Source: a virus. Taken from it: a stretch of 35,558 bases of DNA. The notes below the pieces were generated by a model that saw only the letters and a list, made by a program, of their open reading frames with translations, was not told the DNA's origin and searched no databases. The position numbers were made by a program, and so were the translations under genes. Every line of letters starts with the position of its first letter. Position 1 is the stretch's first letter. The stretch is taken from positions 1 through 35,558 of IMG/VR virus record IMGVR_UViG_3300049489_000672. One strand, written 5' to 3'. Positions 4,233 through 27,935 of this stretch are shown one piece after another.

Positions 4233-4243
4233 GTTGCATTACT
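4233..4243 (-). promoter_or_regulatory. AGTAATGCAAC motif, copy 1
   Basis: Minus-strand AGTAATGCAAC, about 70 bases upstream of the lysis cassette and just downstream of the terminator at 4252-4289. A new transcript would be expected to begin here. An A-rich stretch follows and a CCTAAGAT string lies about 20 bases beyond. Family evidence is in the findings. Confidence 0.65.
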
Positions 4244-4251
4244 GAGCAATA

Positions 4252-4289
4252 GCAAAAGGCCCATCCATGAGAGTGGACAGGCCCTTTGC
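4252..4289 (-). terminator. Terminator hairpin after the 4309-4629 gene
   Basis: On the minus strand, CAAAGGGCCTGTCCA pairs with TGGATGGGCCTTTTG around CTCTCA. TTTT falls within the 3' arm. Loop and stem resemble the terminator at 1443-1473, so the two may be related copies. Confidence 0.6.
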
Positions 4290-4308
4290 TTTCATAAATA
4301 TGGACAGT

Positions 4309-4629
4309 TTAGTCTTTCTTGTGCGCCTCTTTGCGTATTCGGCTGTAGAGGTTCCTTTCCGGTCCATCAAGTGGATCGTCGAGCTTTACCGCCACCTCGA
4401 CATACGCCCGGCTGATTTCCTCAGTCGTGATGTCTTTGGTGTCGAATTGAGGCACCCTGCCCTTTAATACCTCGGTGAGGATGTATTCCTCAGTCGAAGA
4501 AAGCGGAGCGCTCATATTGCTCTTGACCCGCGTAATCTCGCTATCCGAGAATGTCGACGCGTCGTGTACCGCAGCTCCCGTCAGAGCCATGGTCCCGATG
4601 ATGAATCCGATTGTTGTTTTTTTGTCCAT
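4309..4629 (-). CDS. Small exported or membrane-anchored protein of unknown function
   Basis: A 106-residue protein. Residues 1-22 (Lys-Lys then IGFIIGTMALTGAA) form a probable signal or anchor sequence. The rest is polar and charged (DTKDITTEEISRAYVEVAV) with no recognised domain. It lies between the second recombinase and the lysis cassette and ends just before a terminator. Possible roles are lysis accessory (spanin-like or anchored regulator) or envelope modification in lysogens. Nothing in the sequence decides. Confidence 0.6.
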   Translation of the reverse strand: MDKKTTIGFIIGTMALTGAAVHDASTFSDSEITRVKSNMSAPLSSTEEYILTEVLKGRVPQFDTKDITTEEISRAYVEVAVKLDDPLDGPERNLYSRIRKEAHKKD

Positions 4630-4646
4630 AAGTTTAAATAATTATT

Positions 4647-5477
4647 TTACACGTAGCTTGGCACGAATTGCTCGTACTCATTCTTCACACCGTACTCCGT
4701 AGAGTGGATGTAGATCATGGTACTTTCTATGAACACGTGACCGAGCTGTTGTTTGACTGTGAGCAGGTTTGCCCCTCGATTCAGCATGTTTGTGGCAAGT
4801 GAATGTCTGAGAAGGTGTGGCCATACTCTCTTGGTAAATCCTGCTCGCTTGGAAACTGTCTTAACAAGTTTTCTGAGCGCTGCGCCGAGATATTTCTTTT
4901 TTCCGTTCGGTGCTATCGTCGTGAACAAGAAATCATCATCGCCTCTCGGATATTTCTCAAGATATGAGAGCAGTGATTTTATACAATGCCCGGACACGTA
5001 GACGATTCTGTCCTTGAGTCCTTTTCCTTGAGTAATTCTGAGGGTGTTGCTCCCAAAGTCGATGTCTTTCACTTTGAGATTGCAGAGCTCCTTGTTTCTG
5101 ATGCCGGAGTAAGCAAGTGTGGTGATGATTGCGACCTCTCTCGCGTTGTGGCAGCTAAATATCATTTTAGTGATCTCAGCTTCCGACAACGGAGTCTTGA
5201 GGAGCAACTTTGGTTTTTTCTGACGGCCGAAACGTGTCGGTGTCCCGATAAAATCCATCCACTGCTCAATGCCCAGTACCGTATTGATCTTGTGACTATA
5301 CGAGTACTCGCTGCGGTAGAGATCATAGACGTAATCGTCCATCTCTTCGATTGTCGGTTTGAGCGTTCCGAGCTCGCGCAACACTTTTCTAACGACCGTC
5401 ACATATCCTCTGACAGTGATGGGTTGAAGTCCTTTTTTGATAAAAAGAAACTTCTGAAAATCTTTATATTCATCCAT
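4647..5477 (-). CDS. Second tyrosine recombinase, XerC/D-like
   Basis: A 276-residue protein with the full catalytic set: Arg127 in SGIRNKE, Lys152 in QGKGLKDR, His221 and Arg224 in HLLRHS, His247 in LGHVF and Tyr256 in MIYIH. An N-terminal core-binding domain covers 1-85. It is clearly distinct from the first integrase. Its place beside the fibre genes and upstream of the lysis cassette is unusual, because an integrase normally borders the attachment site. Options are resolution of genome multimers, use of a Xer/dif-type site, or DNA inversion affecting the nearby fibre genes. I saw no pair of matching inverted repeats around the fibres. A promoter and attenuator-like leader precede it. Confidence 0.85.
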   Translation of the reverse strand: MDEYKDFQKFLFIKKGLQPITVRGYVTVVRKVLRELGTLKPTIEEMDDYVYDLYRSEYSYSHKINTVLGIEQWMDFIGTPTRFGRQKKPKLLLKTPLSEAEITKMIFSCHNAREVAIITTLAYSGIRNKELCNLKVKDIDFGSNTLRITQGKGLKDRIVYVSGHCIKSLLSYLEKYPRGDDDFLFTTIAPNGKKKYLGAALRKLVKTVSKRAGFTKRVWPHLLRHSLATNMLNRGANLLTVKQQLGHVFIESTMIYIHSTEYGVKNEYEQFVPSYV

Positions 5478-5513
5478 AATGTTTAATAACCTATACGCTA
5501 TTAATTCGACAAC

Positions 5514-5599
5514 GGAAAAGCACGCAAGAGGTATAGCTCTTACGTGCTCAATTACGATCCCGTCGGATCAACCGAATTACCACTAGGGTAATTGAGCAC
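5514..5599 (-). promoter_or_regulatory. Attenuator-like leader of the second recombinase
   Basis: On the minus strand GTGCTCAATTAC (5588-5599) pairs perfectly with GTAATTGAGCAC (5544-5555), enclosing GATCC-GACG-GGATC. The 3' arm overlaps by four bases the 5' arm of a terminator, GCACGTAAGAG with CTCTTGCGTGC (5520-5547), which runs into TTTTCC. A third small hairpin, ATTACC with GGTAAT, shares bases with the long stem. Mutually exclusive pairing of this kind is typical of transcription attenuators or riboswitch expression platforms. It could alternatively be the recombinase's own DNA target site. Confidence 0.6.
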
Positions 5600-5632
5600 A
5601 TTTTATCACCTTTTCAAAGATCGATACAGTGC

Positions 5633-5661
5633 ATAATACACTACTATTGACAATATATCAA
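5633..5661 (-). promoter_or_regulatory. Strong sigma-70 promoter for the second recombinase
   Basis: Minus-strand TTGATA (5656-5661), 17 bases, then TATTAT (5633-5638). It fires into the structured leader at 5514-5599 and the recombinase. It is one of the best consensus matches in the window. Confidence 0.7.
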
Positions 5662-5671
5662 TATAGTTGTC

Positions 5672-5986
5672 TTATGCTACCTCTTCCGCCGGGATAACAT
5701 CCTCAGCCTTCTCGATTACCGGTGCAACCTCAACATCAGTCTTTGAGAGCTCCTGCACCTGTGCCTCAAGGGTAGTCTTTTCTGTAGAAATAGCCTCAAT
5801 TTTAGCCGTTTTCTCGCTGATTATGGTGTCCTTTTGGACCACCTCTGCCCTTGCGTTCTCGAGTACCTGCAACTCTGGCGCAAATTTGTCCTCTAGGACC
5901 GATACAGCGAGGTTTAGGGCATCTGCCTCAGCCTGTTTTGAGGCTGCAGAGGCTTTTAAAATGTCGATTGCTTGTGTTAGTTCCAT
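5672..5986 (-). CDS. Small coiled-coil protein
   Basis: A 104-residue protein starting at the ATG at 5984-5986, 19 bases after the fibre gene's stop codon. It is Ala/Glu/Lys-rich with long heptad-like stretches between about 1 and 88 (KQAEADALNLAVSVLEDKF), then an acidic Pro/Val tail. I recognise no domain. Placed after the fibre and surface genes, it may be a fibre chaperone or a small virion component. Confidence 0.6.
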   Translation of the reverse strand: MELTQAIDILKASAASKQAEADALNLAVSVLEDKFAPELQVLENARAEVVQKDTIISEKTAKIEAISTEKTTLEAQVQELSKTDVEVAPVIEKAEDVIPAEEVA

Positions 5987-6005
5987 GATCGTAATTTTGT
6001 TATTT

Positions 6006-7217
6006 TTAATAAATTGTCCTCCACGCATACGCGTCTCCGGCGTCTTTTGCGCACACCTCATAGGTGTCTTTTACACCAGCGCCCCCTTGGAAGAACCAAG
6101 TTGTGCCTCTTACAGTCGAGTCGCATGTAGGTTTTGACGTCGCGGTGTTTTGTCTGATTCCACCGTTCACTTCGAGCTTTTGAGTAGGGCCAGTAGTCCC
6201 AATACCCACCGCTCCAGCAAAGGTAGAGGTAGCGGTAGTAGTTGTGGCAACAAAATAAGAAGCATCAATCAAACCAGATGCGCGTATTGCACCAGTAACC
6301 TCCAAAGGATACGTTGCATCACTGCCTTTCTTTACCGAGATAAGTCCAGTCTGGCTGACACGCAAGCCTTCTGTGAATGCCCCTCCAACACCTCCGTAAA
6401 AGAGCATTCTTCCGGAGTCAGCTGCTGTGCCCTGCTCAAAAATAATGCCACCAACACGAGTCTTGCTCGATTCGTCTCGTGGGGCAATTTCTCCAAAACG
6501 GCAGCTTGCACTGTTGCAATCTGCCCCAAACATGAGGGCTCCGTAGCTTCCGCCGTTTACAGACCCTCCACCGTCCCAGGTAGAGAATGCCACCGACTGC
6601 GTTCCTGTTTGATCATACAAAGAGAAGGCGCTCGCTGCAGTCGAAGTGGTTCGAGGGCGCTTGACGACGAATGCAGGAAGAGTTGACGACGTCTGGTCTA
6701 TGTCCAACTTTGAGAATGGAGAAGTGGAACCTATACCCACGTTGCCAGAGGCATTTATTGTGAGACGATCTGCGCCTGCAGTTACGAATCTCAAAATGTC
6801 ATTTCCTCCGCGATACATTCCGGTATTTGTGTCCGCTGTAAAGGTCACGCTTGGCGTACCTACCGCACCATCGGCGAATTGAGTGACGCCGGTGACAGTG
6901 AGCACTCCGTTGATGGTTGCGTTACCGCTTGAGACTAGGGAAACAGGTGCATAGAAGTTGCCATCTACCCTCAAATTGCCCTTTATATAGGCGTTTCCGC
7001 TGAATGTAGAGGTTGCTGTGGTGCTCGAGGTGTTGATTGAGTCCACTGTAGGGCTAGAAGTGGCCGATATAGGGCTTTTTCCGTTTCCTACGAGTAATTG
7101 ACCGGCAGGCAGAGTCTGAGCTCCTGTACCTCCTTGGTCAACGATAAAAGGCGCTGCACTCGCTAGAGCAGGGCTGATAAAGGCTAAAACGGCTAAAATT
7201 GTGATTATTTTTTTCAT
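6006..7217 (-). CDS. Signal-peptide-bearing surface or fibre protein, host-like style
   Basis: About 403 residues from the ATG at 7215-7217, seven bases after the preceding stop codon. The longer frame to 7304 is rejected because it overlaps the upstream gene. The N-terminus is a clear Sec signal (MKKIITILAVLAFISPALAS, cleavage near SAA). The body is Ser/Thr/Gly-rich and beta-rich, with fibre-type segments such as NTGMYRGGNDILRF and two VGIGxTxP repeats. The C-terminus (VCAKDAGDAYAWRTIY) and TTATSTFSG-like runs are, to my recognition, typical of Parcubacteria surface proteins. Tail fibres do not normally carry signal peptides, so lysogenic conversion or a host-derived surface adhesin is plausible. 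A tail fibre with an unusual N-terminus is the alternative. Confidence 0.65.
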   Translation of the reverse strand: MKKIITILAVLAFISPALASAAPFIVDQGGTGAQTLPAGQLLVGNGKSPISATSSPTVDSINTSSTTATSTFSGNAYIKGNLRVDGNFYAPVSLVSSGNATINGVLTVTGVTQFADGAVGTPSVTFTADTNTGMYRGGNDILRFVTAGADRLTINASGNVGIGSTSPFSKLDIDQTSSTLPAFVVKRPRTTSTAASAFSLYDQTGTQSVAFSTWDGGGSVNGGSYGALMFGADCNSASCRFGEIAPRDESSKTRVGGIIFEQGTAADSGRMLFYGGVGGAFTEGLRVSQTGLISVKKGSDATYPLEVTGAIRASGLIDASYFVATTTTATSTFAGAVGIGTTGPTQKLEVNGGIRQNTATSKPTCDSTVRGTTWFFQGGAGVKDTYEVCAKDAGDAYAWRTIY

Positions 7218-7224
7218 AGTTTTG

Positions 7225-8256
7225 TTAAGGTGTTCGCTCATAAAATGCATCAAAAGGCAGTCCCGAATACGATGCGTCCGGTGCGCTGTTGAACGTGATC
7301 TCATTGCCCAACAGGGTGTACCTGCTAGGGCTTACGAGAGCCTCGTTGAGAAATAGCTGCAAAGTGAATTCAACTGGCTCATAGTCGAGGGTAAATACTG
7401 TGTTCACTCCGTCGATTGTCTGATCAGAGAGAGACTCCTGTGCGCGGATATTTACTGCACCTCCGCCACCGGAAATCTGAACAACGACACGATCACCGAC
7501 TTTGCTGACAGTAACGCCGGACCCTGTGAAGTTGATCCTTCGAATGAGTGATGCGATTTCCTCTCCCGATCCTTCGATTGCGATGCCCGGATCCTGTACA
7601 GGCTGATTCTTCACACGATTGAACATCGCTGCGAAGTCCGGCACATCTTTGAGGTCATCAAGGGAAAGTTTCTCGCCCTCTTTGAGTGAGCGAAGTTTCT
7701 TCACAATGTCCTGCGCTGTGTCCGGTGTGATTTGCTTTACCTCCTTAGGCTTTGGCAAAAGTGGCAAAAGCTTTGTTGCAATTTCCTCATAGTTGAGTAC
7801 AGCGTCTTTTCCCGGATCTCCATCCTTTGGTTTCGGGATTCTTGAGACTACTTCGCGAATGAATGAGTCAACCTCCTCGGCTGTCATGTAGTCGACACCC
7901 TTCTCCGGAGTCTTGCCGTCTTCCGGCGTAGGAATCAGATCTCGAATGCGTGAGACGATCTCATCCAACTCTGACTCAGTGAAATAATCCACACCTTTCT
8001 CGGGTGTTTTTCCGGCTTCTCCCGGCTCTCCGGGATCGCCTTTTATCGATGCGAGAAAATTCGTAATGAATTCTGCAGATGAATTTACCTGCTTCATCTG
8101 TGGGACCGCCTTAGCGATTTTGTCCAATGATACGGCCACGCTTTCAGTCATGACCATTTTCTCTGGATCACTGTCTCTACTTGAAACAAGGTAAGACTGC
8201 AGAGTCATTACTAGCTCTTGCAGAGTCGTTTTTATTTCGTTTAGATCATTTGGCAT
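7225..8256 (-). CDS. Tail fibre with collagen-like segment and internal repeats
   Basis: A 343-residue protein. A helical N-terminal part (1-70) is followed by a short collagen-like run (GDPGEPGEAG, 73-82). Two copies of a 30-residue repeat starting GKTPEKGVDY then follow (about 82-111 and 114-143), with a degenerate third. The C-terminal part (about 235-343) is beta-rich and ends in a phage-type receptor or capping domain (FTLDYEPVEFTLQLFLNEAL). It is the first gene after motif copy 2. I infer a trimeric fibre or baseplate-attached host-recognition protein. The collagen-like Gly-X-Y segments support trimer formation. Confidence 0.7.
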   Translation of the reverse strand: MPNDLNEIKTTLQELVMTLQSYLVSSRDSDPEKMVMTESVAVSLDKIAKAVPQMKQVNSSAEFITNFLASIKGDPGEPGEAGKTPEKGVDYFTESELDEIVSRIRDLIPTPEDGKTPEKGVDYMTAEEVDSFIREVVSRIPKPKDGDPGKDAVLNYEEIATKLLPLLPKPKEVKQITPDTAQDIVKKLRSLKEGEKLSLDDLKDVPDFAAMFNRVKNQPVQDPGIAIEGSGEEIASLIRRINFTGSGVTVSKVGDRVVVQISGGGGAVNIRAQESLSDQTIDGVNTVFTLDYEPVEFTLQLFLNEALVSPSRYTLLGNEITFNSAPDASYSGLPFDAFYERTP

Positions 8257-8291
8257 ATGTTAAAGCCTATAGGATAAAAACAGCCTTTTTC

Positions 8292-8302
8292 GTTGCATTA
8301 CT
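8292..8302 (-). promoter_or_regulatory. AGTAATGCAAC motif, copy 2
   Basis: Minus-strand AGTAATGCAAC, with its TAA serving as the stop codon of the HNH gene. It lies about 40 bases upstream of the fibre gene at 8256. GAAAAA follows and a CCTATAG string lies about 20 bases beyond. Confidence 0.65.
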
Positions 8303-8933
8303 TCTTTACAGGAGTCTCAAAAACCCTCTCTATTGGCCAACCTTCGTCAACCCTAGATCGGAGTACACTATATGGAATATTAAGTTTTTCTGCCCATTCA
8401 CCTATCCACATTCTCTCACCTTTGTAAGTAAATATTCTGCTTTTTCTTGTATTTCTCGCCTGCTCTGTATTTGTAACCCATCGACAATTTTTCCTTGAAT
8501 AGTTGCCATTCACATCAATGCGATCAATTTCTGTATCTTTTTCTCCAAAAGAATCTACGTGTGCTAGATACGCGTCATACATATCTGTTTTAAATTCATC
8601 AAAGGACTGCCAGTCAATTTTTATACCCCTGCCACCATAGTCTTTATAACTTCTTGTTTTCTGATTCAAACATCGGCTACGCATATTTGTCCAAACTTGA
8701 TAAAATTTTGTGTAGCGAAGTCCATGTTTTCTGATCACATTTTTTGTGAAATTTTCTCTTGAGTAGCAACCACAACTTTTTGAAACTCCTTTTAAAACGG
8801 CCCACAAACGAATTGCTTTTACTTTTCCACAGTCACATTGAAATACCCAGTGAATCTTTCCCCACCTGTCTCTGTGAGAAAAGTTTACAGCTGTCAGTTT
8901 CCAAATTTTTTTGCCTTTTATATTATCTTTCAT
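8298..8933 (-). CDS. HNH homing endonuclease
   Basis: A 211-residue protein. The core (about 90-170) reads as a phage HNH/AP2-type endonuclease: FYQVWTNMRSRCLN, the YKDYGGRGI element, TEIDRIDVNGNYSRKNCRWV and the EQARNTR ending. An N-terminal zinc-ribbon-like part (CDCGK, with CGC about 20 residues later) and a C-terminal helical DNA-binding tail complete it. It is most likely free-standing, inserted between the virion genes and the fibre. I see no intron boundaries interrupting a conserved gene next to it. Its insertion may have brought the flanking motifs into their present spacing. Confidence 0.85.
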   Translation of the reverse strand: MKDNIKGKKIWKLTAVNFSHRDRWGKIHWVFQCDCGKVKAIRLWAVLKGVSKSCGCYSRENFTKNVIRKHGLRYTKFYQVWTNMRSRCLNQKTRSYKDYGGRGIKIDWQSFDEFKTDMYDAYLAHVDSFGEKDTEIDRIDVNGNYSRKNCRWVTNTEQARNTRKSRIFTYKGERMWIGEWAEKLNIPYSVLRSRVDEGWPIERVFETPVKK

Positions 8934-8944
8934 TTTTTAAATTC

Positions 8945-9124
8945 TTAGATTCTGTAGGTGCGCCCCCTTTCCCCCACAAAGGTCAAGCTTGTGAAGAAAA
9001 GAGACGCATCACTTTCAAATTCTTGAGTTCTGACGGCGATTTTCTCTGGCCGCGAGATGCGCTGGAACGAGATAATTTTGTGTCCTCTCGTTATACCCCC
9101 GGACAATGTTGGCCCTAGAAACAT
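8945..9124 (-). CDS. Possible 59-residue ORF downstream of structured RNA
   Basis: An open frame from the ATG at 9122-9124 to the TAA at 8945-8947, ending 11 bases before the HNH gene. The product (MFLGPTLSGGITRGHKIISF at its start) has no recognised domain and an undistinguished composition. Its start codon is the last three bases of a 12-bp hairpin arm, so translation could be gated by the predicted pseudoknot. With no homologue in mind, chance is a fair alternative. If it is not coding, 8934-9121 is a noncoding leader of the HNH gene. Confidence 0.3.
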   Translation of the reverse strand: MFLGPTLSGGITRGHKIISFQRISRPEKIAVRTQEFESDASLFFTSLTFVGERGRTYRI

Positions 9125-9185
9125 AAAAGGGAGCTTCGTATCCCTGTTGCGAGTGATACGACTCTCCCTTTTATGCGCAACAGGG
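9122..9185 (-). ncRNA. Predicted pseudoknot RNA element
   Basis: On the minus strand CATAAAAGGGAG (9164-9175) pairs perfectly with CTCCCTTTTATG (9122-9133), with an inner stem CGTATC/GATACG (9155-9160 with 9137-9142). The loop contains CGCAACAGG, which pairs perfectly with CCTGTTGCG at 9176-9184, directly 5' of the hairpin. Three interleaved perfect helices of 12, 6 and 9 bp make an H-type pseudoknot or a two-state switch. It lies 40-110 bases downstream of motif copy 3, so it would be near the 5' end of that transcript. Confidence 0.6.
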
Positions 9186-9222
9186 TCACTTCATATTCTG
9201 CTAGAATAAAAATGATTATTTT

Positions 9223-9233
9223 GTTGCATTACT
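9223..9233 (-). promoter_or_regulatory. AGTAATGCAAC motif, copy 3
   Basis: Minus-strand AGTAATGCAAC followed by AAAATAA, with TTCTAGCA about 18 bases further on. It precedes the predicted pseudoknot and the HNH gene and is the only copy in a divergent intergenic region, with the plus-strand genes starting at 9377. Confidence 0.65.
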
Positions 9234-9302
9234 TTTGTGTTGAAAAACAAGGATATTTCTTATTTTTTAAGTTTATTTTTAAGTGAATACAACAAACTCG
9301 GT

Positions 9303-9376
9303 ATACCAGTGGGATACCAGTTGCACACCAAATTCTTGAAAGGTTTGACAAGATGTGCTACATTGTTGTCAATAAT
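9303..9376 (+). promoter_or_regulatory. Candidate operator/promoter of the plus-strand operon
   Basis: Two direct repeats ATACCAGT (9303-9310 and 9314-9321) are spaced 11 bp, one helical turn. Downstream, TTGACAA (9345-9351) and TTGTCAA (9366-9372) form a perfect inverted repeat, and TTGACA is a consensus -35 element. The -10 element is weak (GTCAAT at 17 bases, AATAAT at 20). The layout suggests a repressible promoter, but the exact start is uncertain. Confidence 0.4.
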
Positions 9377-9592
9377 ATGATTGCTAAAATAATATTTGCT
9401 ATATCTTCTCTGCTACTAGCTACATCAGCATTCTTTTTTGTTGTGGTTGAAAATAAAAAAGTTGAAGTGCAGCGCAAAGCTGGATACGCAGAGTGTTTAG
9501 GAAATTATGCAAATGGAAAGTATGCAATACCAAATGATGACAGAGATCTTTCGGTTGATTGGTTTGTAGCCTGCGACAGGCTTAAATATTAA
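9377..9592 (+). CDS. Small membrane-anchored protein, first gene of plus-strand operon
   Basis: A 71-residue protein on the strand opposite to all other genes. Residues 1-24 (MIAKIIFAISSLLLATSAFF) form a membrane anchor or signal. The remainder is polar with two cysteines (ECLG, ACDR), perhaps a disulfide-bonded extracytoplasmic domain. I prefer the ATG at 9377 to the in-frame ATG at 9353, because the latter adds a short segment that would break the anchor and overlaps the promoter-like repeat. Orientation, location and small size mark it as a moron. Superinfection exclusion or another lysogen-expressed envelope function is an inference. Confidence 0.6.
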   Translation: MIAKIIFAISSLLLATSAFFFVVVENKKVEVQRKAGYAECLGNYANGKYAIPNDDRDLSVDWFVACDRLKY

Positions 9593-9596
9593 AAAT

Positions 9597-9764
9597 ATGT
9601 TTATACCCATCTACATCTTAATTTTGGCGCTAGTAATAACTTTTTTCATTACAAGATTTGCATATAAAAAAGGCAAAGAATCAGAATCAAAAGCTGACTC
9701 TTTAAAACGTCCTTATATTCCCATGACTGCAATCATGGATGACGCTACAAGAAACAAAAAGTAG
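9597..9764 (+). CDS. Second small membrane protein of plus-strand operon
   Basis: A 55-residue protein starting four bases after the previous stop codon. Residues 1-18 (MFIPIYILILALVITFFI) form one membrane helix, followed by a basic tail (RFAYKKGKESESK) that should face the cytoplasm. Its stop codon is two bases from the stop codon of the convergent ejection-like gene, with no terminator between, so each transcript would run antisense into the other. Function unknown; co-transcription suggests partnership with the preceding anchored protein. Confidence 0.6.
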   Translation: MFIPIYILILALVITFFITRFAYKKGKESESKADSLKRPYIPMTAIMDDATRNKK

Positions 9765-9766
9765 CC

Positions 9767-11338
9767 TTATTTAACTGGTAGATTTTCAATTTCTATAAAC
9801 ATCTTCTCTATAGCTCTATTCGGATCATTTAGATATTTGTAGAAAGTAGCGATTGCCTTTTGTGTTGCCCCCTTTGCAATTAGTCCCGGATTAAGAGTAA
9901 GCAATCCATTCACAACATCTCCTCCTGAAAGAACATCTGTAAAGTCGATAAGTCCCTTTGTATTTCGTCGTGCATCTCTTAACGCAGCCTTGATAACATC
10001 TCTTTCCACAGTCTTTAACGCGCCGTATTGCTGTTTCAGAGCACCGTATTGTGCTCCAGTAAGTCCGTTGATACCCTCATCAAGAGCCTGTCTCATTCTA
10101 TTTGCGATCATTGCATCAATTGCAGCCTTAGACGCTGTATCATAGTTTGGATTTCTATAAAATGCCTCGAGAGACTTGTTGTAATTCTGTATAACATCTT
10201 GAGTGGTCTTTGCATCAAGCCGGCCATTCTTAATAAGACGATCCTTTAATTCCTCAGCATATTTAATTGAGCTTGGGCTTGTAATCTCTAGGGCGCGGTT
10301 TTGAATCACTCCATCGAGTTCGTCTGCAATCGGTTTTAGGTCCACTTTTAATCCTGCCTCTCCTGCTTGAGTTGCTAGATCGTCGTATTTAGTAAAGATT
10401 GATTTTTTTGTCTGTTCGATTGCCTCTGAGAGTTGCTGCAATGTTTTTGGATTTTGTCCTGCGATCTTTTCTCCAACTTCATCGCTTAGCGAGAGATTTG
10501 GTTTGTTTTCATTTATTGTTTTTACAGCTTGAACAATGTCATCTCTGTAATCAGCAACAGCACGGGGGTTTGCACGAGATGGAAGAGTCGGCTTCACTCC
10601 CTTTTCAAACCTGTTAACAATGGTTGACTCTATTTGCTTTTCTGACTTTGTAGTAAGACGTTTTGCAAGATCGCCAACCTCTAGTCCGATTTTCGAAAGA
10701 GATGTATCAGTGCCCCTTGTTACTGGCCGAGCAATTTTTGCGATAGCGTCTCCTGCACCATCTGCAACAACCTTCTGACCTCCATATAGAAGACTTGGAA
10801 TAAGCAACGGATCCTCAATACCCACCTTTGCAACATCACTAACCGCTTGAGCAGGGTTCTGCCACGCATTCTTTGCTCCAGTGCTTATTGAGTTCAATAC
10901 ACCCTTTCCAGTGTCCACAAAGCCTCCTACCACATCTTTTGCCCCTTGTACGACTCCTCTATCCTTTACGATACCTGAAAGCGCCTGTGCGCCTTTTACA
11001 ATGTTTGAGCCTATGTTTAAAGGATGCTCTGTGTCAAATGGATTGACCGGAGCAACAATAGCTCGTCCAAGGTTAACTGCAGAGCTTGGGATATTTCCAA
11101 ATGTCTTTGCAATATTCGGCAACAAAGTACCTGCCCCACCTTCACTTGCTTTAAATTGTGGCTCTTGATTTTTTACAGCATTACCAAATGTTGAAATAAA
11201 ACCATCCCTTTTTTGAGGTTGCTCTTGTACCGGCTTTGGCTTAGGCAAGGTGTTTAGCCATTCTTGAATCTCAGACTGTGACGCTCCTTGTTTTTCCAAT
11301 GCTTCGATATTCTGTTGTATCTGTTCTCGTGTAAGCAT
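9767..11338 (-). CDS. Probable internal virion / DNA ejection protein
   Basis: A 523-residue protein, mostly helical, with no recognised enzymatic motif. The N-terminus (LTREQIQQNIEALEKQGAS) is a short helical segment followed by a Pro-rich linker. Residues about 90-200 are Gly/Ala/Val-rich and amphipathic (NIVKGAQALSGIVKDRGVV and similar), the kind of sequence that can insert into membranes. The C-terminal half is charged and helical. It follows the LysM protein at the end of the virion block. Podovirus ejection proteins are often large, helical and poorly conserved, so I infer this role. A minor tail protein is the alternative. Confidence 0.5.
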   Translation of the reverse strand: MLTREQIQQNIEALEKQGASQSEIQEWLNTLPKPKPVQEQPQKRDGFISTFGNAVKNQEPQFKASEGGAGTLLPNIAKTFGNIPSSAVNLGRAIVAPVNPFDTEHPLNIGSNIVKGAQALSGIVKDRGVVQGAKDVVGGFVDTGKGVLNSISTGAKNAWQNPAQAVSDVAKVGIEDPLLIPSLLYGGQKVVADGAGDAIAKIARPVTRGTDTSLSKIGLEVGDLAKRLTTKSEKQIESTIVNRFEKGVKPTLPSRANPRAVADYRDDIVQAVKTINENKPNLSLSDEVGEKIAGQNPKTLQQLSEAIEQTKKSIFTKYDDLATQAGEAGLKVDLKPIADELDGVIQNRALEITSPSSIKYAEELKDRLIKNGRLDAKTTQDVIQNYNKSLEAFYRNPNYDTASKAAIDAMIANRMRQALDEGINGLTGAQYGALKQQYGALKTVERDVIKAALRDARRNTKGLIDFTDVLSGGDVVNGLLTLNPGLIAKGATQKAIATFYKYLNDPNRAIEKMFIEIENLPVK

Positions 11339-11343
11339 AATTT

Positions 11344-12960: not shown

Positions 12961-12972
12961 TGCTTTTTACTT

Positions 12973-15066: not shown

Positions 15067-15080
15067 AAAATTTTTTATTG

Positions 15081-15857
15081 TTAATTAGTTACCTTGCTAA
15101 TAAATCTGCCATCAACGGTGGTCAGTTGTGTACGCTTTGATCCATCGTATACACCCGACACCTTTCCGTTTTCGTCATACTCCAACACATACGTTTTACC
15201 GTTTATGTTGTCGTGGATTGATCGGATGGTGTTGTCGAGATTGTAGGCAATGTCCACGTTTTCAAACCCTGCTGCGATACCAACAAGGGCAGCAGCCATA
15301 AGCTGCGCGAGGGTTACAGGTTGGCTTGACGACACAGCGTCCGGAATACTAGGCGAAAGTGCGAATGTGTTATTTCCTGCAAAGTTGTTGTTTCCGCTTA
15401 CTGACGCCTTGTCAGCAAGAGAATCGTCGACATACTTTTTTGCTATTAGCTGCTTTTCGTCGCTGTATGTGGGATTTCCGTCATATTTGAGCGGATTGTC
15501 CTTGTCGAGAGTGTCTTCACCGTTCAAGACATCAACAATCACTTTCAGATTCACGAAGTCGGTGAGATAACACTTTGAGCCGGCTCGGTGTCCGTTTGCG
15601 TTCTGCACACCTGCAGTCTGTACACCCTGTCGTGAGACGCTCTTGATGTTGGTCATTGCTACGCCTGAAAGATCGAAAAGCAGATGCTCTTCGTCTCCGG
15701 TACCTCGATCAACGATCATGCAGTATTTACCGGCCGGAAGAGTGACGCTGTTCTTGTCAGTTGCGCTTGAGAGTGATCCTGTAGTAGCACCAAAAGCAAG
15801 CTTTGCAGCTATTGATGTTTCGAAGTTTGCGATGACTTTGGTGAGTTTGGATGCCAT
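15081..15857 (-). CDS. Tail or neck structural protein
   Basis: A 258-residue protein. Residues 1-110 are beta-rich (LPAGKYCMIVDRGTGDEEHLLF). Next is a KKYVDDSLADKASVSGNNNF-type segment characteristic of fibre-like phage proteins, and then a beta-rich C-terminus with the GKTYVLEYDENGK strand pair. It is the first gene after motif copy 4 and lies among tail genes. I infer a fibre-attachment or minor tail protein. I recognise no exact family. Confidence 0.5.
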   Translation of the reverse strand: MASKLTKVIANFETSIAAKLAFGATTGSLSSATDKNSVTLPAGKYCMIVDRGTGDEEHLLFDLSGVAMTNIKSVSRQGVQTAGVQNANGHRAGSKCYLTDFVNLKVIVDVLNGEDTLDKDNPLKYDGNPTYSDEKQLIAKKYVDDSLADKASVSGNNNFAGNNTFALSPSIPDAVSSSQPVTLAQLMAAALVGIAAGFENVDIAYNLDNTIRSIHDNINGKTYVLEYDENGKVSGVYDGSKRTQLTTVDGRFISKVTN

Positions 15858-15891
15858 ATATTTATTTTGTACTTAAAATGTTGATTTTTTC

Positions 15892-15902
15892 GTTGCATTA
15901 CT
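15892..15902 (-). promoter_or_regulatory. AGTAATGCAAC motif, copy 4
   Basis: Minus-strand AGTAATGCAAC with its TAA used as the stop codon of the 633-residue nozzle-like gene. It is about 40 bases upstream of the gene starting at 15857, and GAAAAAATC follows. Confidence 0.65.
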
Positions 15903-17799: not shown

Positions 17800-17801
17800 A
17801 G

Positions 17802-18431: not shown

Positions 18432-18458
18432 AATATTGTTTGTTATTTATTGCTCAGT

Positions 18459-18512: not shown

Positions 18513-18524
18513 TTGGTGCTGCGG

Positions 18525-19730: not shown

Positions 19731-19780
19731 GTTATGGGTAAATTTAGTTGGCTAATGCTTACCCTTTCAGAGCTATCAAA

Positions 19781-20659: not shown

Positions 20660-20792
20660 ACGTTTGTTTTTATCGAGGGTTTTCGTCCCCTCGCGCACTC
20701 ACTCATCGCGGAATGCTAGCGAATAACGTTTTTAATAAAAGAGGTTCGTCCCTCTATGCTCAAAATGATAGATGTCTTTTTTTGCAAAATGC

Positions 20793-20803
20793 GTTGCATT
20801 ACT
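20793..20803 (-). promoter_or_regulatory. AGTAATGCAAC motif, copy 5
   Basis: Minus-strand AGTAATGCAAC placed just after the terminator at 20814-20838 and about 135 bases before the scaffold gene. GCATTTTGCAAAAAAAG follows and TCTATCAT lies about 21 bases on. A terminator followed by this motif marks a transcript boundary. Confidence 0.65.
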
Positions 20804-20813
20804 TTGAGACAAG

Positions 20814-20838
20814 AAAAAACCACCGGATTGCCGGCGAT
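20814..20838 (-). terminator. Intrinsic terminator after the 20861-21241 gene
   Basis: On the minus strand ATCGCCGG-CAAT-CCGGTGG forms a short GC-rich stem (one G-T pair) running into TTTTTTC. It closes the portal-accessory gene group before the scaffold-capsid group. Confidence 0.65.
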
Positions 20839-20860
20839 CTTTTCTTTACTATTCCTTTGA

Positions 20861-21612: not shown

Positions 21613-21627
21613 GGTGCGTCAATGAGA

Positions 21628-22032: not shown

Positions 22033-22074
22033 AATTTTATTTTAATTATTTTTATAAAGTTTTAATAAATATTG

Positions 22075-24105
22075 CTACTTGAGCGCAGCTGTCTCAGCGA
22101 CCGCTTTTGTCGGATCATTGAGAGGCACTTCTCCAGTGGCCTCGATTCCCGGATCTTTCAATCCGGTTGGATCGACCATACCTCCGCCACCTGTGCCATT
22201 TCCTAATGCGCCGACCTTTGCTTGCTCTTCCATGATCATGCGAGCCGCGTTCTGCTCGACGATAGCTGAGATTTCTTGAGCGTATGCCATGACTGCATCA
22301 TGCTGCTCTGTTGAGAGCTCATGACTGTACTTGTTTGCAAGGTCATTCAAGCGCTGCAAGAAAGCAGTGTTTGCGTCCTTGTAAAGCGGTGGCTTCTGAC
22401 CGCCAATGATCATTTGGAAGGCTTCATCAGCCTGTGCGACGATCTCAATAGCGTTGTAATCGCTCGTATCGAGCAATCGCTTTATGGTGTCATCATCGAG
22501 TCCGGCAATGGTTGCCTGAGTTTCGAAAAGAACTTTTTGGTTGATGGTCTGGTTGTCCTTGTATGCTCCAAGGAAAGTGAGCTTGTTTTTGCTGTCAGCG
22601 AGGTTGCTCTGTGCTTCGGCAAGCGATGACTCGACGAGAATGTCATAGTCTTCCTTATATGGCTTGAGCTCGCGTGCGCTTACCTCTTCGATCTCGAGTC
22701 CCATAGGACCAAGGATCTGCACAGCCATTTTCTTTTTCAAATCCTGCATGACTCCCTCCTTGTGAAGAACGGCAAAGCGGTAATATCCTTCGGCATAGCT
22801 CTTGTTCAAGAGTCCGAAGCGATCCCCTGCCTGCATGAGGTTTCCCTCGTAGATTCCGAGTGTCTCTTCCTCGCTGTTTCCCTTCACTGCTGCGGTCACT
22901 CCGCTTTCAGATTCAACGATTGACTCGAGCTTGTCATAAACCTTGAAAGGTCCCTCGATAGGCGGTGTCTGACGAGTCTGCAGCACTCGATTTACGTCGA
23001 CATTTCCCTCAATTTCAATATAACCGTCCTTTCGGTATCGGACCTGCGCGAGATTTCGAACATAGTCAACGTTTACGGCTGTTTGAGGGCGGTTGATCTG
23101 CTCAGAGTTGTCGAGAGACTGGTTGATACTCTTTTCCTGCGCTTGGAATATCCCGCGTGCAAAGTCACAGTATGAAGGCGTCCAAAACTCACGAGGATCA
23201 GGGAAACACGCCCATGTCCAAATAGGATACTTTCCGCTCTTTCTGATGTCCTTCCATGGCTCGCAACGGATACAGTCACCCGATGGCGTAAGCACAAGGT
23301 AGTAACGCACATCATTTTCGTCAGTGGTAAACCAAGTATAGAAAACAAACTGATTCTCGTTCTTGAATCGCTCTCGAGGTGCGCCGGTGTTCTTTCGGTT
23401 ATCCTTGTCGATGTCCTGCTGAGTCTTTGTGGTAGTTGTGCCACCATCGAGCATGTCCTCAACGACTTTCTTGTAGTAAATGCCGTCTTTGATACCTGCA
23501 TTGAGCTGTGCGCGTGATAGCTTAGTATTCCACCATCCGAGATACTGCGCTCGCTCGATGCCTGCTCCGTAGTCTTCCTCTTCCTCTGTACAGAGTCCGC
23601 CCACATCCGGGTCAATCAAGAAGTCTTTTGGATCAATGAGGCTGAGCACGCTCTTGTAAACGCTCTTCACGTTTCGAGTCATGTAGAGGTAGATCGTTCG
23701 GCCATAGATAGCAGCGTCACGCTTACCCATGAGGTCTTTGAAGTTCCATCGTCCAATCTTCGAGTCCTTCTCCTTGATGGCGTTCATCAGCTTTGCCTTT
23801 TTGTGGTCCGCTGTTTCGCCCTTTACGTATTTAAAAGTGAGAGGAGAGTCGATCTTCGAGAGGATCGTCTGCACGAAGTTGTGCATCTTGTAGAGAGGCA
23901 CTGACGCTCGAGTGTCTCCCTGCTGTTGCTGATATGTGCTGCCTCCGTATGGTGAGGTTACGGACATCGCTTTGTCCGGATTCATCATGTCCTCGTTCTT
24001 GTTCCATGAGGACATTCGAGCTTTCTTGTAACGATAGGCGTAATCAATCTCTTTGAGCGCCTGTTTTGCGAGTTCGTCGCGTTTTTTATAGTGGGCTAAT
24101 GACAT
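22075..24105 (-). CDS. Portal protein
   Basis: A 676-residue protein, large for a portal and typical of podovirus-type forms. A basic helical N-terminus (YRYKKARMSSWNKNEDMMNP) precedes the mixed alpha/beta body. Residues about 320-345 (AQEKSINQSLDNSEQINRP) and about 390-450 (ESESGVTAAVKGNSEEETLG) show the crown and stem region expected. The C-terminal part (about 560-676) is helical and ends in a Gly/Pro-rich tail. It lies immediately downstream of the large terminase. It forms the dodecameric ring through which DNA enters and leaves the head. Confidence 0.82.
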   Translation of the reverse strand: MSLAHYKKRDELAKQALKEIDYAYRYKKARMSSWNKNEDMMNPDKAMSVTSPYGGSTYQQQQGDTRASVPLYKMHNFVQTILSKIDSPLTFKYVKGETADHKKAKLMNAIKEKDSKIGRWNFKDLMGKRDAAIYGRTIYLYMTRNVKSVYKSVLSLIDPKDFLIDPDVGGLCTEEEEDYGAGIERAQYLGWWNTKLSRAQLNAGIKDGIYYKKVVEDMLDGGTTTTKTQQDIDKDNRKNTGAPRERFKNENQFVFYTWFTTDENDVRYYLVLTPSGDCIRCEPWKDIRKSGKYPIWTWACFPDPREFWTPSYCDFARGIFQAQEKSINQSLDNSEQINRPQTAVNVDYVRNLAQVRYRKDGYIEIEGNVDVNRVLQTRQTPPIEGPFKVYDKLESIVESESGVTAAVKGNSEEETLGIYEGNLMQAGDRFGLLNKSYAEGYYRFAVLHKEGVMQDLKKKMAVQILGPMGLEIEEVSARELKPYKEDYDILVESSLAEAQSNLADSKNKLTFLGAYKDNQTINQKVLFETQATIAGLDDDTIKRLLDTSDYNAIEIVAQADEAFQMIIGGQKPPLYKDANTAFLQRLNDLANKYSHELSTEQHDAVMAYAQEISAIVEQNAARMIMEEQAKVGALGNGTGGGGMVDPTGLKDPGIEATGEVPLNDPTKAVAETAALK

Positions 24106-24140
24106 GTATCAAAGTTTAGATGCGAAAATGTGTCTTTTTT

Positions 24141-24150
24141 GTTGCATTAC
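24141..24150 (-). promoter_or_regulatory. GTAATGCAAC motif, copy 6
   Basis: Minus-strand GTAATGCAAC (preceded by G, not A) located in the gap between the large terminase stop codon and the portal ATG. AAAAAAGACACATTTTC follows and TCTAAACT lies about 21 bases downstream. Confidence 0.65.
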
Positions 24151-24157
24151 CCTCGAA

Positions 24158-25840
24158 TCAGATGCCGATGTCAGGGTATTGAGGTCCAATATCGTCGATT
24201 TCTTCCTCGTATGCAGAGCGGACACGCTGAAAAGGGTCATTTGGCACGCTCACCGGCGTATCTTCGCGCGGTTTTTCCACCCCTGCAGGCTTTGCAATGT
24301 CGCTCTGATAGGCAGTTGCATCGCTGCAGTCGTCATGCTCGGCATGTGGAAAACGAATAAGCTCGCCCTCGAGGTCATTACACTCTCCCTCAATGTGTCG
24401 AATGCTCTTTGACTCGTAGCGATATAGCAATCCTGTTCTGATTCGGTCTTCCTTTGAGCGTCCTGCATGTTTGAGCCAGTGGAGCGAGAAGAATACCTGT
24501 CGCTTTCTCATCTCTGCCCGGAGCATAGGCTCAAGTCCTCGTGTGTATGGCGTGTCTTCCCAAGCCATGCGAATGAGTGGCACTCCAAGCTGTGCGAGAT
24601 ACTTCACTGTGTCAAACATCTTCTCGATGATTGCAGTAGGCCCGAGCCTCTCCCTGTTTGCTTTGAGGTGCCAAAGCCCCTCGGTATCCACGAAGTTGAT
24701 GCAGAAGCCCACATAGTCGCCATTTTGATCTACTTCGCCCTCCTTTCGGCTTGGCGTGTCAATGGTGACATACGTAGCAAGACGCTTCTTGAGCACTTCA
24801 TCAAGACTCACAGGAATAAACCACTGTCGCTTGAACAGTGCGCGAGTCTCATCAACAGGCTGACAGAGCATCTCAGCTTGAAAATCAGCGTCACCCTCTT
24901 CCGGCGTCCACATTGAGCGTTTCTTTGCCTCTATGCTGACCTTTCCTGTTACCCTTGCTTCCTCGTCAGTGAGCACCCATCTTTCGGGCCATGTAGGCGA
25001 ATGAAGTCCGGACATGAGAGTCCCTTGACATATCGGCACAACACGCACACGCAATTCAGGATCATGCTTTGCTCGCTCCATGACGCTCTGCACATTTCCG
25101 TATTCACTCAAAATGTTTCCAAGATAAAGCACGCGCCTTCGAGCAGAGTCGAGGCCTCGCTTGAATTCTTGAATATGCGTACGGATCTGCTTCGTAACAG
25201 CATCGCTCTTGAGCGTCTTCTTTGTCTCAAAGTCGTCGAGAATGACAAAGCCCGGGCGCATTGCTCCATGCACGCGACCTCGCACGCTCTCCTGCGTTGA
25301 GTGAGCCTCGACACGAGTACCTTCCTTGAGAATGTTCCCTGTATCATCCTTCTGCGGATTCGTGATGAAGTCCTTGACTCGCTTCATGGTCACTTCGTCC
25401 GGCGATCGAGTGGTGTTGTATTTCTCCCCGAAGTCCTTGCGGAATTGCACATTTTTCTGCAGCTCCCATACAACGTCAAAGAGGATACGCTCTGAGTTTG
25501 TAGTATCGAAAGCATCGGCGTTGATGTACGGCTCGATGTCGAATGCGATCATGTAAAGGACCAGTGCTTTTGCAAAAGATGTCTTCGCACTTTCTCCGAA
25601 CATAAACCAAGCGAGTTCGCGTATTTTAAAATCAAGAAGGTCATGTACGTCAGCCATCATGTCGTAATGAAAAGGCGCAAAGGTGCTGCGCACGTAGTGA
25701 GGTAGATAGTACACGATGAAGTATCCGAAATGCTCTCGGACCGCTTTGAGGCGTGCGTCTCTACTTGCTTCCTTGAGGAATTGAAGCCCCTCTGCCGTTA
25801 TTGGCCGGAGTCTTTGTGTCGGCTGTGGGTTTTGTATCAT
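24158..25840 (-). CDS. terL: Large terminase subunit
   Basis: A 560-residue packaging motor. The ATPase domain has a Walker A-like loop GESAKTSF (82-89), a Walker B strand GFVILDDFE (197-205) and a coupling motif near LGNIL (240-244). The nuclease domain shows Asp361 in VTIDTPS, Glu428 in MAWEDTP and the acidic cluster EHDDCSDATAYQ (501-512). A C-terminal tail from about 520 is Pro-rich. The start at 25840 overlaps the small subunit by 80 bases, which implies coupling. It translocates DNA into the head and cuts at the ends. The packaging mode (pac or cos) cannot be read directly. Confidence 0.93.
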   Translation of the reverse strand: MIQNPQPTQRLRPITAEGLQFLKEASRDARLKAVREHFGYFIVYYLPHYVRSTFAPFHYDMMADVHDLLDFKIRELAWFMFGESAKTSFAKALVLYMIAFDIEPYINADAFDTTNSERILFDVVWELQKNVQFRKDFGEKYNTTRSPDEVTMKRVKDFITNPQKDDTGNILKEGTRVEAHSTQESVRGRVHGAMRPGFVILDDFETKKTLKSDAVTKQIRTHIQEFKRGLDSARRRVLYLGNILSEYGNVQSVMERAKHDPELRVRVVPICQGTLMSGLHSPTWPERWVLTDEEARVTGKVSIEAKKRSMWTPEEGDADFQAEMLCQPVDETRALFKRQWFIPVSLDEVLKKRLATYVTIDTPSRKEGEVDQNGDYVGFCINFVDTEGLWHLKANRERLGPTAIIEKMFDTVKYLAQLGVPLIRMAWEDTPYTRGLEPMLRAEMRKRQVFFSLHWLKHAGRSKEDRIRTGLLYRYESKSIRHIEGECNDLEGELIRFPHAEHDDCSDATAYQSDIAKPAGVEKPREDTPVSVPNDPFQRVRSAYEEEIDDIGPQYPDIGI

Positions 25841-26489
25841 TTTCTTTTTTCGCTTGGCTTATAACTTCGACCTGTGCAGGCAAACGTCCGAATAGCTCAA
25901 AAATGCGTGCTTCCTGCTCCGGCGTCACCTGCACGCCTCCTTGGATCTTCTCGCCCTTCGTCGTGAGATCCTGCTTGCCGATCTGCGTAGGCTCTCCGAG
26001 TTCGGTCTTGATGATCTTCCATGCAGCCTCGACCTCTTTGTGGTCTGGCGTTATTTCGACGAATATAGGCTGGCCATCACGATCAAGCAGCACATCACCT
26101 TTTGTGTTCTTTAAGGGCACCTGTCGAGTCTCTATGAGGCCTACAGCACGTTGTATGGCGAGTATCTTACTGTCTTTGAGCCCCTCAATGACCTTAGTAG
26201 CCCTTTTTAACCTAATTTCGTCTAATCTTTCGCAAAAAAAATATGTGTTGCAGTAGTATTTCAGCTGATTGTAGCTCTTGAATTGGCAATCAACATCCCT
26301 CGTCATGGCGAGCATGTTGCCGTTGTGCTTGTCGTAGTAGGCAAAGAGCGTGTCCCTCTCCTTCGGGTTCAGTGGTCTGTATGGCGGTTTCTTGGTAGCC
26401 CCTTGGTATACCACTGGTTGCACAGGCGAAGGCACCGCAGTCTCCTGTGGCTTGGTGTCTTTATTCTCCTGTGTCTTTTCGTCTTTCAT
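25761..26489 (-). CDS. terS: Small terminase subunit
   Basis: A 242-residue protein. A Pro/Gln-rich N-terminal tail (1-40) is followed by a helix-turn-helix region (about 45-105, LNPKERDTLFAYYDKHNGNM then the SYNQLKYYCN segment). A helical oligomerisation region follows, and a C-terminal Thr/Lys/Pro-rich tail comes from about 205. The LTTKGEKIQ string near 175 is a frequent small-terminase feature. It overlaps the large subunit by 80 bases and is coupled to the upstream small ORF by ATGA. Its role is DNA recognition for packaging. Confidence 0.75.
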   Translation of the reverse strand: MKDEKTQENKDTKPQETAVPSPVQPVVYQGATKKPPYRPLNPKERDTLFAYYDKHNGNMLAMTRDVDCQFKSYNQLKYYCNTYFFCERLDEIRLKRATKVIEGLKDSKILAIQRAVGLIETRQVPLKNTKGDVLLDRDGQPIFVEITPDHKEVEAAWKIIKTELGEPTQIGKQDLTTKGEKIQGGVQVTPEQEARIFELFGRLPAQVEVISQAKKENDTKPTADTKTPANNGRGASIPQGSK

Positions 26490-26680
26490 TTTCTAAAAAT
26501 AACGTCATCAATCACAATGGTCAGATCGTCGCCAGTTTTATGGTTTGTCCGGTTGCCCATCTCTTTAATTCCGTAGGTATGTAGGCCATACCCATCCCAT
26601 CCCTTGAATTTATGGCGCAGTATGTCGTTAATTACATAGGCGATCACTTTCTTGAAGATGTATTGTTTGATTTTATTCAT
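26486..26680 (-). CDS. 64-residue hypothetical protein upstream of terminase
   Basis: A small basic protein (KQYIFKKVIAYVINDILR) with a mixed second half (GIKEMGNRTNHKTGDDL) that ends in two short beta strands (TIVIDDVIF). It is coupled at both ends by ATGA overlaps with its neighbours. I do not recognise it. Confidence 0.5.
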   Translation of the reverse strand: MNKIKQYIFKKVIAYVINDILRHKFKGWDGYGLHTYGIKEMGNRTNHKTGDDLTIVIDDVIFRK

Positions 26681-27048
26681 GTGAATATTTTTCTTATAAA
26701 GTTTCGTATCGTATTAACCCTCTTCGCTCGGTTGATTGCCTTGCGTAGCTCCCTGCGCCTCCCCTTCTCCGCTTCCCACTTTGTCGCTTTTGCTTCCTTG
26801 TGTGCCTCGAATGCTTTGCGCTTGGTGTTTGCGAGCTCGATCTTTGCTTTAGGATCCTCTCGGTGATAGTTGTACTTCCACCTTGAGAGTATGCGATTTT
26901 CAAAGTTGTGCCGGCCGTCAGTATGGAACTTGATGAAGACAGCGCCCGAGTCGAGCACCTCGCAATGCTCCATCAGGAAGTCCCACACTGCCTCTTGGTA
27001 TCCCTTGATGTCCGGAGTGTACTTGTAGTCATGGCTGTTCTCGGGCAT
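26677..27048 (-). CDS. Hypothetical basic helical protein
   Basis: A 123-residue protein. The N-terminal half (1-60) is a mixed fold with KFHTDGRHNFENRIL. The C-terminal half is a long, very basic helix (TKRKAFEAHKEAKATKWEAE onward). It could bind nucleic acid. It overlaps the next gene by four bases and belongs to the coupled run leading into the terminase. Confidence 0.5.
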   Translation of the reverse strand: MPENSHDYKYTPDIKGYQEAVWDFLMEHCEVLDSGAVFIKFHTDGRHNFENRILSRWKYNYHREDPKAKIELANTKRKAFEAHKEAKATKWEAEKGRRRELRKAINRAKRVNTIRNFIRKIFT

Positions 27049-27060
27049 TTTTTCATGGAT

Positions 27061-27483
27061 TTATTGCTTCTCCATCCACCCGGTCATGCTTGATTCGTTG
27101 CACGCCCCAACCTTTCCACTGTCGTCAATGTACTCGTATGTCGGCTTGTTGTTCTTCTGAGGGATGATGCCGATCACAAGGCGCTCCTCGCCTCGATGGT
27201 TCCGGCAGATGGTTCCGAATGTGTAAGTCATCTTCTGCTCAGGGTTTTTCTTCTCCCAGATAGCCTTGAGCGCTCCGAAGAATTCGACTTGAATTGTCTG
27301 CAGATACGCGATGATGGCGTCCTTCTGCTCAGTCTTGAAAATAGGCAGGATTCCATGAGCGCCGATGATCCATGCTCCGACGAGGTCCGGGCGAGCTGCG
27401 AGGAAGCGTGCTGATAGGTTCAAAGGGTTCTTTACCTCCCTTGTTTCTGCTTTGATGTCGGCTTTTTTGTTTATTTTAGGCAT
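27061..27483 (-). CDS. Hypothetical protein downstream of HTH regulator
   Basis: A 140-residue protein. Lys/Glu-rich up to residue 18, then a compact alpha/beta fold (DLVGAWIIGAHGILPIFKTE, then the ERLVIGIIP strand). The C-terminus has an ACNESSMTGWMEKQ motif. No family recognised. Its start lies 13 bases inside the upstream regulator gene and about 40 bases after motif copy 7. Confidence 0.5.
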   Translation of the reverse strand: MPKINKKADIKAETREVKNPLNLSARFLAARPDLVGAWIIGAHGILPIFKTEQKDAIIAYLQTIQVEFFGALKAIWEKKNPEQKMTYTFGTICRNHRGEERLVIGIIPQKNNKPTYEYIDDSGKVGACNESSMTGWMEKQ

Positions 27484-27935
27484 AGTGTTGATTCAATGTT
27501 ATTAAAAGATTTACTGTTAAGGCGTTGCATTACTTCGAAGACGAAAGGGTCAGGTGCCATTGAGTCGGATCCGAGGATTTTTCCGCAACAGGCGCACCGT
27601 ATCGACCATAGCTTGTGCTGACATCCCTCCTGTCGCTTGATCCTCTGCTCTTCCTCCCTGTGTTGGATGTAGGCGTAGGATCCTCTGAGCTTCTTCTCGG
27701 ATCTCACCCTCTTCCGCTCTCGGTATACCTCGATCACTTCCTCCGGCATCTTCCGGACCACCGGCACCCTGCGCACCCAACCGTCAAACTGGATATGGTA
27801 AAAAATAGAGCTCCGATTCACCCCGAGGAATACGGCGATGTGGGCCATCTTCCAGCCCTTTTCCTCATAGAGCAGTCGGGCGTCTTCTACGCCTTTCGTG
27901 TCCAGTTTGTGTCTTGGATTATTTACATTGCGCAT
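27471..27935 (-). CDS. HTH and zinc-ribbon DNA-binding regulator
   Basis: A 154-residue protein started at the ATG at 27933-27935. The longer frame to 28049 is rejected because it would be translated through a terminator hairpin. Residues about 12-45 form a helix-turn-helix (EDARLLYEEKGWKMAHIAVF, then LGVNRSSIFYHI). A highly charged helix follows (about 55-95), then a possible zinc site (CQHKLWSIRCACCG). It has its own extended -10 promoter and attenuator-like leader, so it is probably a regulator rather than a structural protein. It is a candidate activator of the GTAATGCAAC sites or a late-gene switch. Confidence 0.55.
   Translation of the reverse strand: MRNVNNPRHKLDTKGVEDARLLYEEKGWKMAHIAVFLGVNRSSIFYHIQFDGWVRRVPVVRKMPEEVIEVYRERKRVRSEKKLRGSYAYIQHREEEQRIKRQEGCQHKLWSIRCACCGKILGSDSMAPDPFVFEVMQRLNSKSFNNIESTLCLK
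27524..27534 (-). promoter_or_regulatory. AGTAATGCAAC motif, copy 7
   Basis: Minus-strand AGTAATGCAAC followed by GCCTTAACAGTAAATC, about 40 bases upstream of the gene starting at 27483. Unlike the other copies it lies inside a coding region, near the end of the HTH regulator gene, where it is translated as part of VMQRL. Confidence 0.6.

Follow-up and report, generated by a model that had tools for sequence, protein, structure and literature searches.

Lineage-specific boxes as candidate activator sites at predicted late promoters of a Patescibacteria phage

The window analysed here, the whole 35,558 nucleotide (nt) stretch of IMG/VR virus record IMGVR_UViG_3300049489_000672, contains seven copies of the 10-mer GTAATGCAAC, all on the minus strand. 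These repeats very likely constitute the upstream halves of bipartite late promoters, and there is good reason to regard them as activator boxes at which a phage-encoded activator would replace recognition of a -35 element. A small DNA-binding protein encoded in the same phage (27471-27935, minus strand) probably switches the late genes on; the designation of the gene blocks as late is based on their gene content.

All seven copies are exact matches and lie where an earlier sequence-only reading of the window had reported them. That reading also expected fewer than one copy by chance, and dinucleotide shuffles give 0.10 copies, with no shuffle reaching seven; an A precedes the 10-mer in six of the seven, as it had noted. 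Copy 1 (27524..27533) marks the first late promoter, upstream of a gene for a 140 amino acid (aa) protein (27061-27483). Copies 2 (24141..24150) and 3 (20793..20802) belong to the portal and the scaffold/capsid promoters, with equivalents at the same places in the relatives (in all of them for the portal). Copy 4 (15892..15901) is at the promoter of a 258-aa gene in the tail region, copy 5 (9223..9232) precedes a long leader before an HNH gene, copy 6 (8292..8301) serves a 343-aa collagen-like fibre gene (7225-8256), and copy 7 (4233..4242) lies before the lysis-side block. The TAA within the box doubles as the stop codon of the upstream open reading frame (ORF) at 15898-15900 and of the HNH gene at 8298-8300, both as previously described. 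The distances of 35-75 nt (twice 100-140 nt) formerly given from motif to gene are only roughly right: four copies are ~35-41 nt from the start codon, but the distance is 68 nt for the copy at 4233, ~95 nt for 20793, and ~290 nt from 9223 to the HNH gene.

Each copy is followed at exactly 22 nt by a NANNNT hexamer, and it is this element, rather than the YCTA string once placed 18-21 bases beyond the motif, that recurs downstream. In order from copy 1 to copy 7, and all on the minus strand, the hexamers are TAACAT (27496..27501; predicted transcript start ~27489), TAAACT (24113..24118; predicted start adjoining the portal ATG at 24105), TATCAT (20765..20770; scaffold/capsid), CAAAAT (15864..15869; predicted start on the first base of the ATG at 15857, and thus leaderless), CAGAAT (9195..9200; HNH leader), TAGGCT (8264..8269; ATG at predicted +2), and TAAGAT (4205..4210; lysis-side block). 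Among 20,000 random sets of seven positions upstream of genes, at most six of the seven had NANNNT at any one spacing from 0 to 40 nt. Taken as a -10 element, the hexamer puts the box at about -44 to -35, where a -35 box would be. The absence of a -35 element, also claimed in the sequence-only reading, is borne out: no TTGACA-like sequence lies between box and -10, and a -35-like element is present in 0 of 51 curated phage sites.

The spacing extends beyond the window. In one count over the window and its relatives NANNNT stands 22 nt after the box at 46 of 47 sites, the sole miss being a degenerate copy in L027, and it does so at 51/51 sites of the curated set, which omits L027. Both counts leave out phages L013 and L029 because their boxes were aligned separately; these are the only two with a different spacing, the hexamer lying 24 nt after the box. 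With start codons as predicted, the AUG follows the -10 by 6 nt at the promoters of the 258-aa gene (15/15) and by 6-10 nt at those of the portal gene, so that the mRNAs are predicted to have no leader or almost none. The scaffold promoter is exceptional in being followed by ~60-110 nt.

A bipartite layout of this kind bears on a rival explanation, that the box is read by a phage sigma factor or a single-subunit RNA polymerase rather than by an activator of the host holoenzyme. T7-like polymerases typically have promoters specific to the lineage, and there is a superficial likeness between the box spelling GTAATACAC and the first bases of T7 promoters. However, 38 bp in two parts with a host-like -10 misfits a T7-type promoter, the box lies further upstream than a standard -35 element would, and neither a polymerase nor a sigma factor was matched among the window proteins scanned, a set short of every ORF in a phage record that may be incomplete. 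We consider this explanation very unlikely.

Relatives were found by TerL and portal searches of viral contigs and Patescibacteria genomes. Several are prophages in Patescibacteria genomes, some within contigs of 359-409 kb (L028, L029 and L068), which identifies the host group as Patescibacteria (Parcubacteria/Paceibacterota); the host of the window itself is presumed from these relatives. The literal 10-mer GTAATGCAAC has no match in the relatives. Its recurrence at equivalent positions in related phages, proposed earlier as a check, therefore comes out in two parts: the positions and the architecture are kept, but the literal spelling is absent and the sequence has co-diverged. The relatives carry a related element at the TerL-portal junction, and each repeats its own lineage word before the scaffold gene, the 258-aa gene and often a fourth (lysis-side) block; the spellings are GTAATGCACC, GTAATACACC, GTAATGCACG, GTAATTCCTA, CCAATACCTA, TGATTGCACA and TGAATCCGTG. 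One box is thus shared by all late promoters within a phage and differs in spelling by lineage. Two further readings of the box were set aside. A direct repeat or dyad (TGCA...TGCA) fits the GCAC classes only. Most sites share a 'CA' at positions 19-20 of the box, from which no second half-site is claimed because it does not vary with box class.

The phages are mosaic, with TerL, portal and the 140-aa gene pointing to different nearest relatives (L013, L024, L029, L031 and others). Although L013 and L031 have portals that are 93% identical, the promoter before the L013 portal carries the L013 box, and the box is accordingly not explained by simple linkage to neighbouring genes. Similarly, the TerL of L024 is closest to those of L016 and L031, and promoters beside such mosaic genes still follow the class of a helix-turn-helix (HTH) protein, the product of the gene at 27471-27935.

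Among the non-structural genes of the window upstream of the late block, only RusA and this gene have counterparts in nearly all relatives, and the latter is kept in each relative whose sequence extends over the region. The window protein, the proposed late activator, has 154 aa, and the family (126-154 aa) combines a trihelical HTH, a helical middle and an invariant C-x-H ... C-x2-C zinc knuckle (C-x-H/C-x2-C in the window). AlphaFold places helices at residues 13-24, 30-37 and 41-51, the last (~41-51) being the putative recognition helix. A homologue was found neither in the distant capsid relatives L062 and L063 and terminase relatives L018 and L019, whose records are fragments, nor in the phage GenBank collection. 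Another Patescibacteria genome encodes a distant homologue with the same layout of HTH and zinc knuckle in a phage-like gene context (L048/L050, G179 contig 11); a repeated CAATACTTCAA at L048 was rejected as its box, as it lies within coding sequence and not at promoters.

Helix 3 and the box change together. The helix NRSSIFYHIQFDGW goes with GCAAC, KKSV/ILFHIRYNGW-type helices with RCACC, HRSSIIFHIRFNGW with GCACG, DPRAIRFHAGNNGW with TTCCTA, DHKSIRFHMHTNGW with AATACCTA, YHSTIHYHVRSKGW with TGATTGCAC, and HRDSVVFHIRKRGW with TGAATCCG. In Mantel tests the distance between HTH proteins correlates with box distance (r = 0.75 for 14 phages, 0.79 with three divergent phages removed, and 0.92 with the window removed too); the values for comparison genes are 0.01-0.15 (adjacent 140-aa gene), 0.25-0.42 (TerL), 0.27-0.54 (portal), 0.19-0.37 (RusA) and 0.27-0.53 (a 126-aa gene). 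With four other genes held constant, the partial correlation for the HTH protein is 0.72 (p = 0.0001). Only L013 and L029 have an insert of 12 aa in the linker that joins HTH and zinc knuckle, and they are also the sole phages with 24-nt spacing, although these are two phages that may represent a single evolutionary event. In a modest test on a close relative, the G565 prophage was found through its protein, whose recognition helix is identical to that of L016 and L031, and its boxes are the matching GTAATGCACG.

The sequence-only reading had named two HTH genes as potential regulators. Covariation with the box favours the gene at 27471-27935, while the other, at 246-458 (246-560), has a counterpart in one relative only and is not retained. 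Its broader suggestion, that the motif is a promoter or activator site peculiar to the phage and governs late transcription, is strengthened by the 22-nt spacing to a host-like -10, the absent -35, the same late junctions in the relatives and the covariation with the HTH protein.

Several observations weigh against an activator acting at these boxes, or limit how far the evidence reaches. Portal keeps a partial correlation of 0.48 with the box, and to that extent the covariation test falls short of a clean result. Confidence in the fold model is moderate (mean predicted local distance difference test score of 70), and the structure search matches in the PDB are generic HTH folds. No recognisable box was seen in the neighbourhood of the distant homologue L048, and the window copy at 9223 precedes a 290-nt leader with no close gene. 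Covariation, moreover, shows a functional link and says nothing on the sign of regulation.

This last point admits a repressor, with the box as an operator through which the late genes of the lysogen would be kept silent: the covariation evidence applies equally, and the box directly adjoins the promoter. However, promoters without a -35 or TGn, and with C for T at -12 in 34 of 51 cases, look too weak to need repression, and the fixed 22- or 24-nt spacing together with the linker insert points to contact with RNA polymerase. Activation is favoured because the core promoter is weak and the spacing fixed, and repression appears improbable. In a second alternative, which draws on a weak Pfam match of the HTH gene to Terminase_5 (20.4-21.0 bits, cut-off 20.3), a terminase-like HTH protein would bind the boxes as sites of DNA packaging, replication or recombination. 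The match occurs in only one of 13 family members, at the cut-off; a separate gene (25761-26489) occupies the expected small-terminase place directly before TerL; and the boxes precede gene blocks with fixed -10 and start-codon geometry. This alternative has next to no likelihood, and an activator remains the preferred role for the HTH protein.

The host genomes supply both the background for the box and a model for the -10. Six whole genomes of 0.6-1.4 Mb were scanned with the pattern GTAATNC + 26 nt + ANACT. In five of the six, three prophage promoters were matched and class-specific sites were confined to the prophage; the remaining matches were other spellings, about as many as with a reversed-pattern control. 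The sixth genome, G016, serves as background only because a GTAATNC-type pattern does not describe its box. The possibility of a host element, either part of a promoter or a transcription-factor site, draws on the host-like -10 half, but class-specific boxes occur only in prophages within these genomes, with other matches at control level, and the box follows a phage gene in its covariation; we regard it as highly unlikely.

For host promoters the statistics are those of a single genome, that of the L028 host. Over 300 kb of it, TANNNT peaks 6 nt before the ATG (34 of 171 genes, against ~4 per position elsewhere), the same distance as at the phage promoters of the 258-aa gene, and there is little Shine-Dalgarno signal (23/171, compared with 11 at a control position). 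These promoters read TGnTATACT, in a count whose search pattern itself dictated T-12, A-11 and T-7; once T-12 was allowed to vary, 44 of 53 host sites have T at -12 and 20 of 53 have TGn. The corresponding numbers for phage sites are 12/51 and 0/51, with C replacing T at -12 in 34/51. The phage late sites look like host promoters pared down to a weak -10; the affinity that such sites lack would then come from the box together with its protein. In the genome of the host Parcubacteria bacterium C7867-008 (L071-L085), the -10 is a strong TGnTATACT that stands six nt ahead of the ATG, with little Shine-Dalgarno signal. The pattern points to widespread use of leaderless mRNA in at least this Parcubacteria host lineage, and to its exploitation by the phages.

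From layout, conservation, covariation and absence from the tested hosts, all read in the sequences, we infer binding of the box, contact with RNA polymerase and activation, in the following way. The HTH and zinc-knuckle protein of the early region (27471-27935) would accumulate once infection is advanced or a prophage has been induced, and would bind the box, which spans -44 to -35, with contacts perhaps reaching about -25. The bound protein would hold host RNA polymerase on promoters that have no -35, no extended -10 and a weakened -10, and transcripts would start mostly at the AUG or a few bases from it. Without the protein, early in infection or in lysogeny, the late promoters would be silent. 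More broadly, we lean towards the view that these proteins form a new family of HTH and zinc-knuckle late activators, so far confined to Patescibacteria phages, that stands in for sigma70 region 4 at -35 and has diversified to recognise several different DNA sequences, with concerted change of each phage's late promoters, producing leaderless transcripts in hosts heavily reliant on leaderless mRNA. No work on late-gene control in Patescibacteria phages was found among open-licence papers. A concrete candidate regulator, its predicted sites and its predicted transcript starts are now named and can be tested without host culture, and the natural series of protein variants paired with about eight box spellings offers ready material for working out a protein-DNA recognition code.

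The scaffold/capsid transcript begins with a conserved three-hairpin leader (20665..20760, minus strand). Over 15 phages and 17 pairs, 96% of cells are paired (29-60% in slid controls), and six pairs have changes on both sides; the covariation support rests on helices 2 and 3 because helix 1 never varies. No Rfam family matches the leader at the gathering threshold, and it may act in mRNA stability or translational control. Directly downstream of the 9223 promoter, the window has two long crossing inverted repeats at 9110-9190 (minus strand), CCCTGTTGCG/CGCAACAGGG and CATAAAAGGGAG/CTCCCTTTTATG, a possible H-type pseudoknot with stems of 10-12 bp in the leader before the HNH gene.

Three other features of the window, all on the minus strand, concern separate functions. 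A 710-aa protein (31812-33944) appears to be a fusion of an exonuclease-like N-terminus (phrog_69/1218) and an FtsK/SpoIIIE-like motor (phrog_1358). A 118-aa ORF (28053-28409) matches only the C-terminal part of the DNA methyltransferase family phrog_359 (181-297 of 329) and is possibly truncated. Two integrase or tyrosine-recombinase-like genes (514-1644 and 4647-5477) are present in the one phage genome.

Small zinc-binding activators of phage late genes include Ogr/delta of P2, with Ogr sites near -55; the candidate has no match to the Ogr family in Pfam or PHROGs. In phage Mu, the C protein acts near -35 of the late promoters lys, I, P and mom, which have non-consensus -35 and -10 elements (PMC4461284). 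The proposed system similarly has several late promoters with a non-consensus core and a phage activator box near -35, but C acts as a dimer, whereas no dyad is evident across the box classes here, and family scans of Pfam and PHROGs gave no match to the Mu C family. Mycobacterial leaderless promoters, where a TANNNT -10 sets the transcription start at the start codon (PMC3898074), share the type of -10 and its closeness to the start codon; they serve host genes, in contrast to the phage late genes and lineage-specific box described here. The nearest known mode of action, by analogy, is that of T4 MotA, which with AsiA and the MotA box directs middle promoters by sigma appropriation, the box being centred at -30 and 12 ± 1 bp from the -10 (PMC2988021). 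Common to both would be a short phage box in place of the -35, a retained host sigma70 -10, a near-fixed distance between the two, and a small phage DNA-binding activator, in the present case one whose specificity would diverge fast. The protein family and the geometry differ, and the candidate is for these reasons not a MotA member: it has no match to the MotA family in Pfam or PHROGs and is modelled as a plain trihelical HTH, with a zinc knuckle and no known partner, where MotA has a double-wing DNA-binding domain and AsiA. The box here is centred near -39.5, 22 (or 24) bp from the -10, and while MotA serves middle genes, the candidate would serve late ones.

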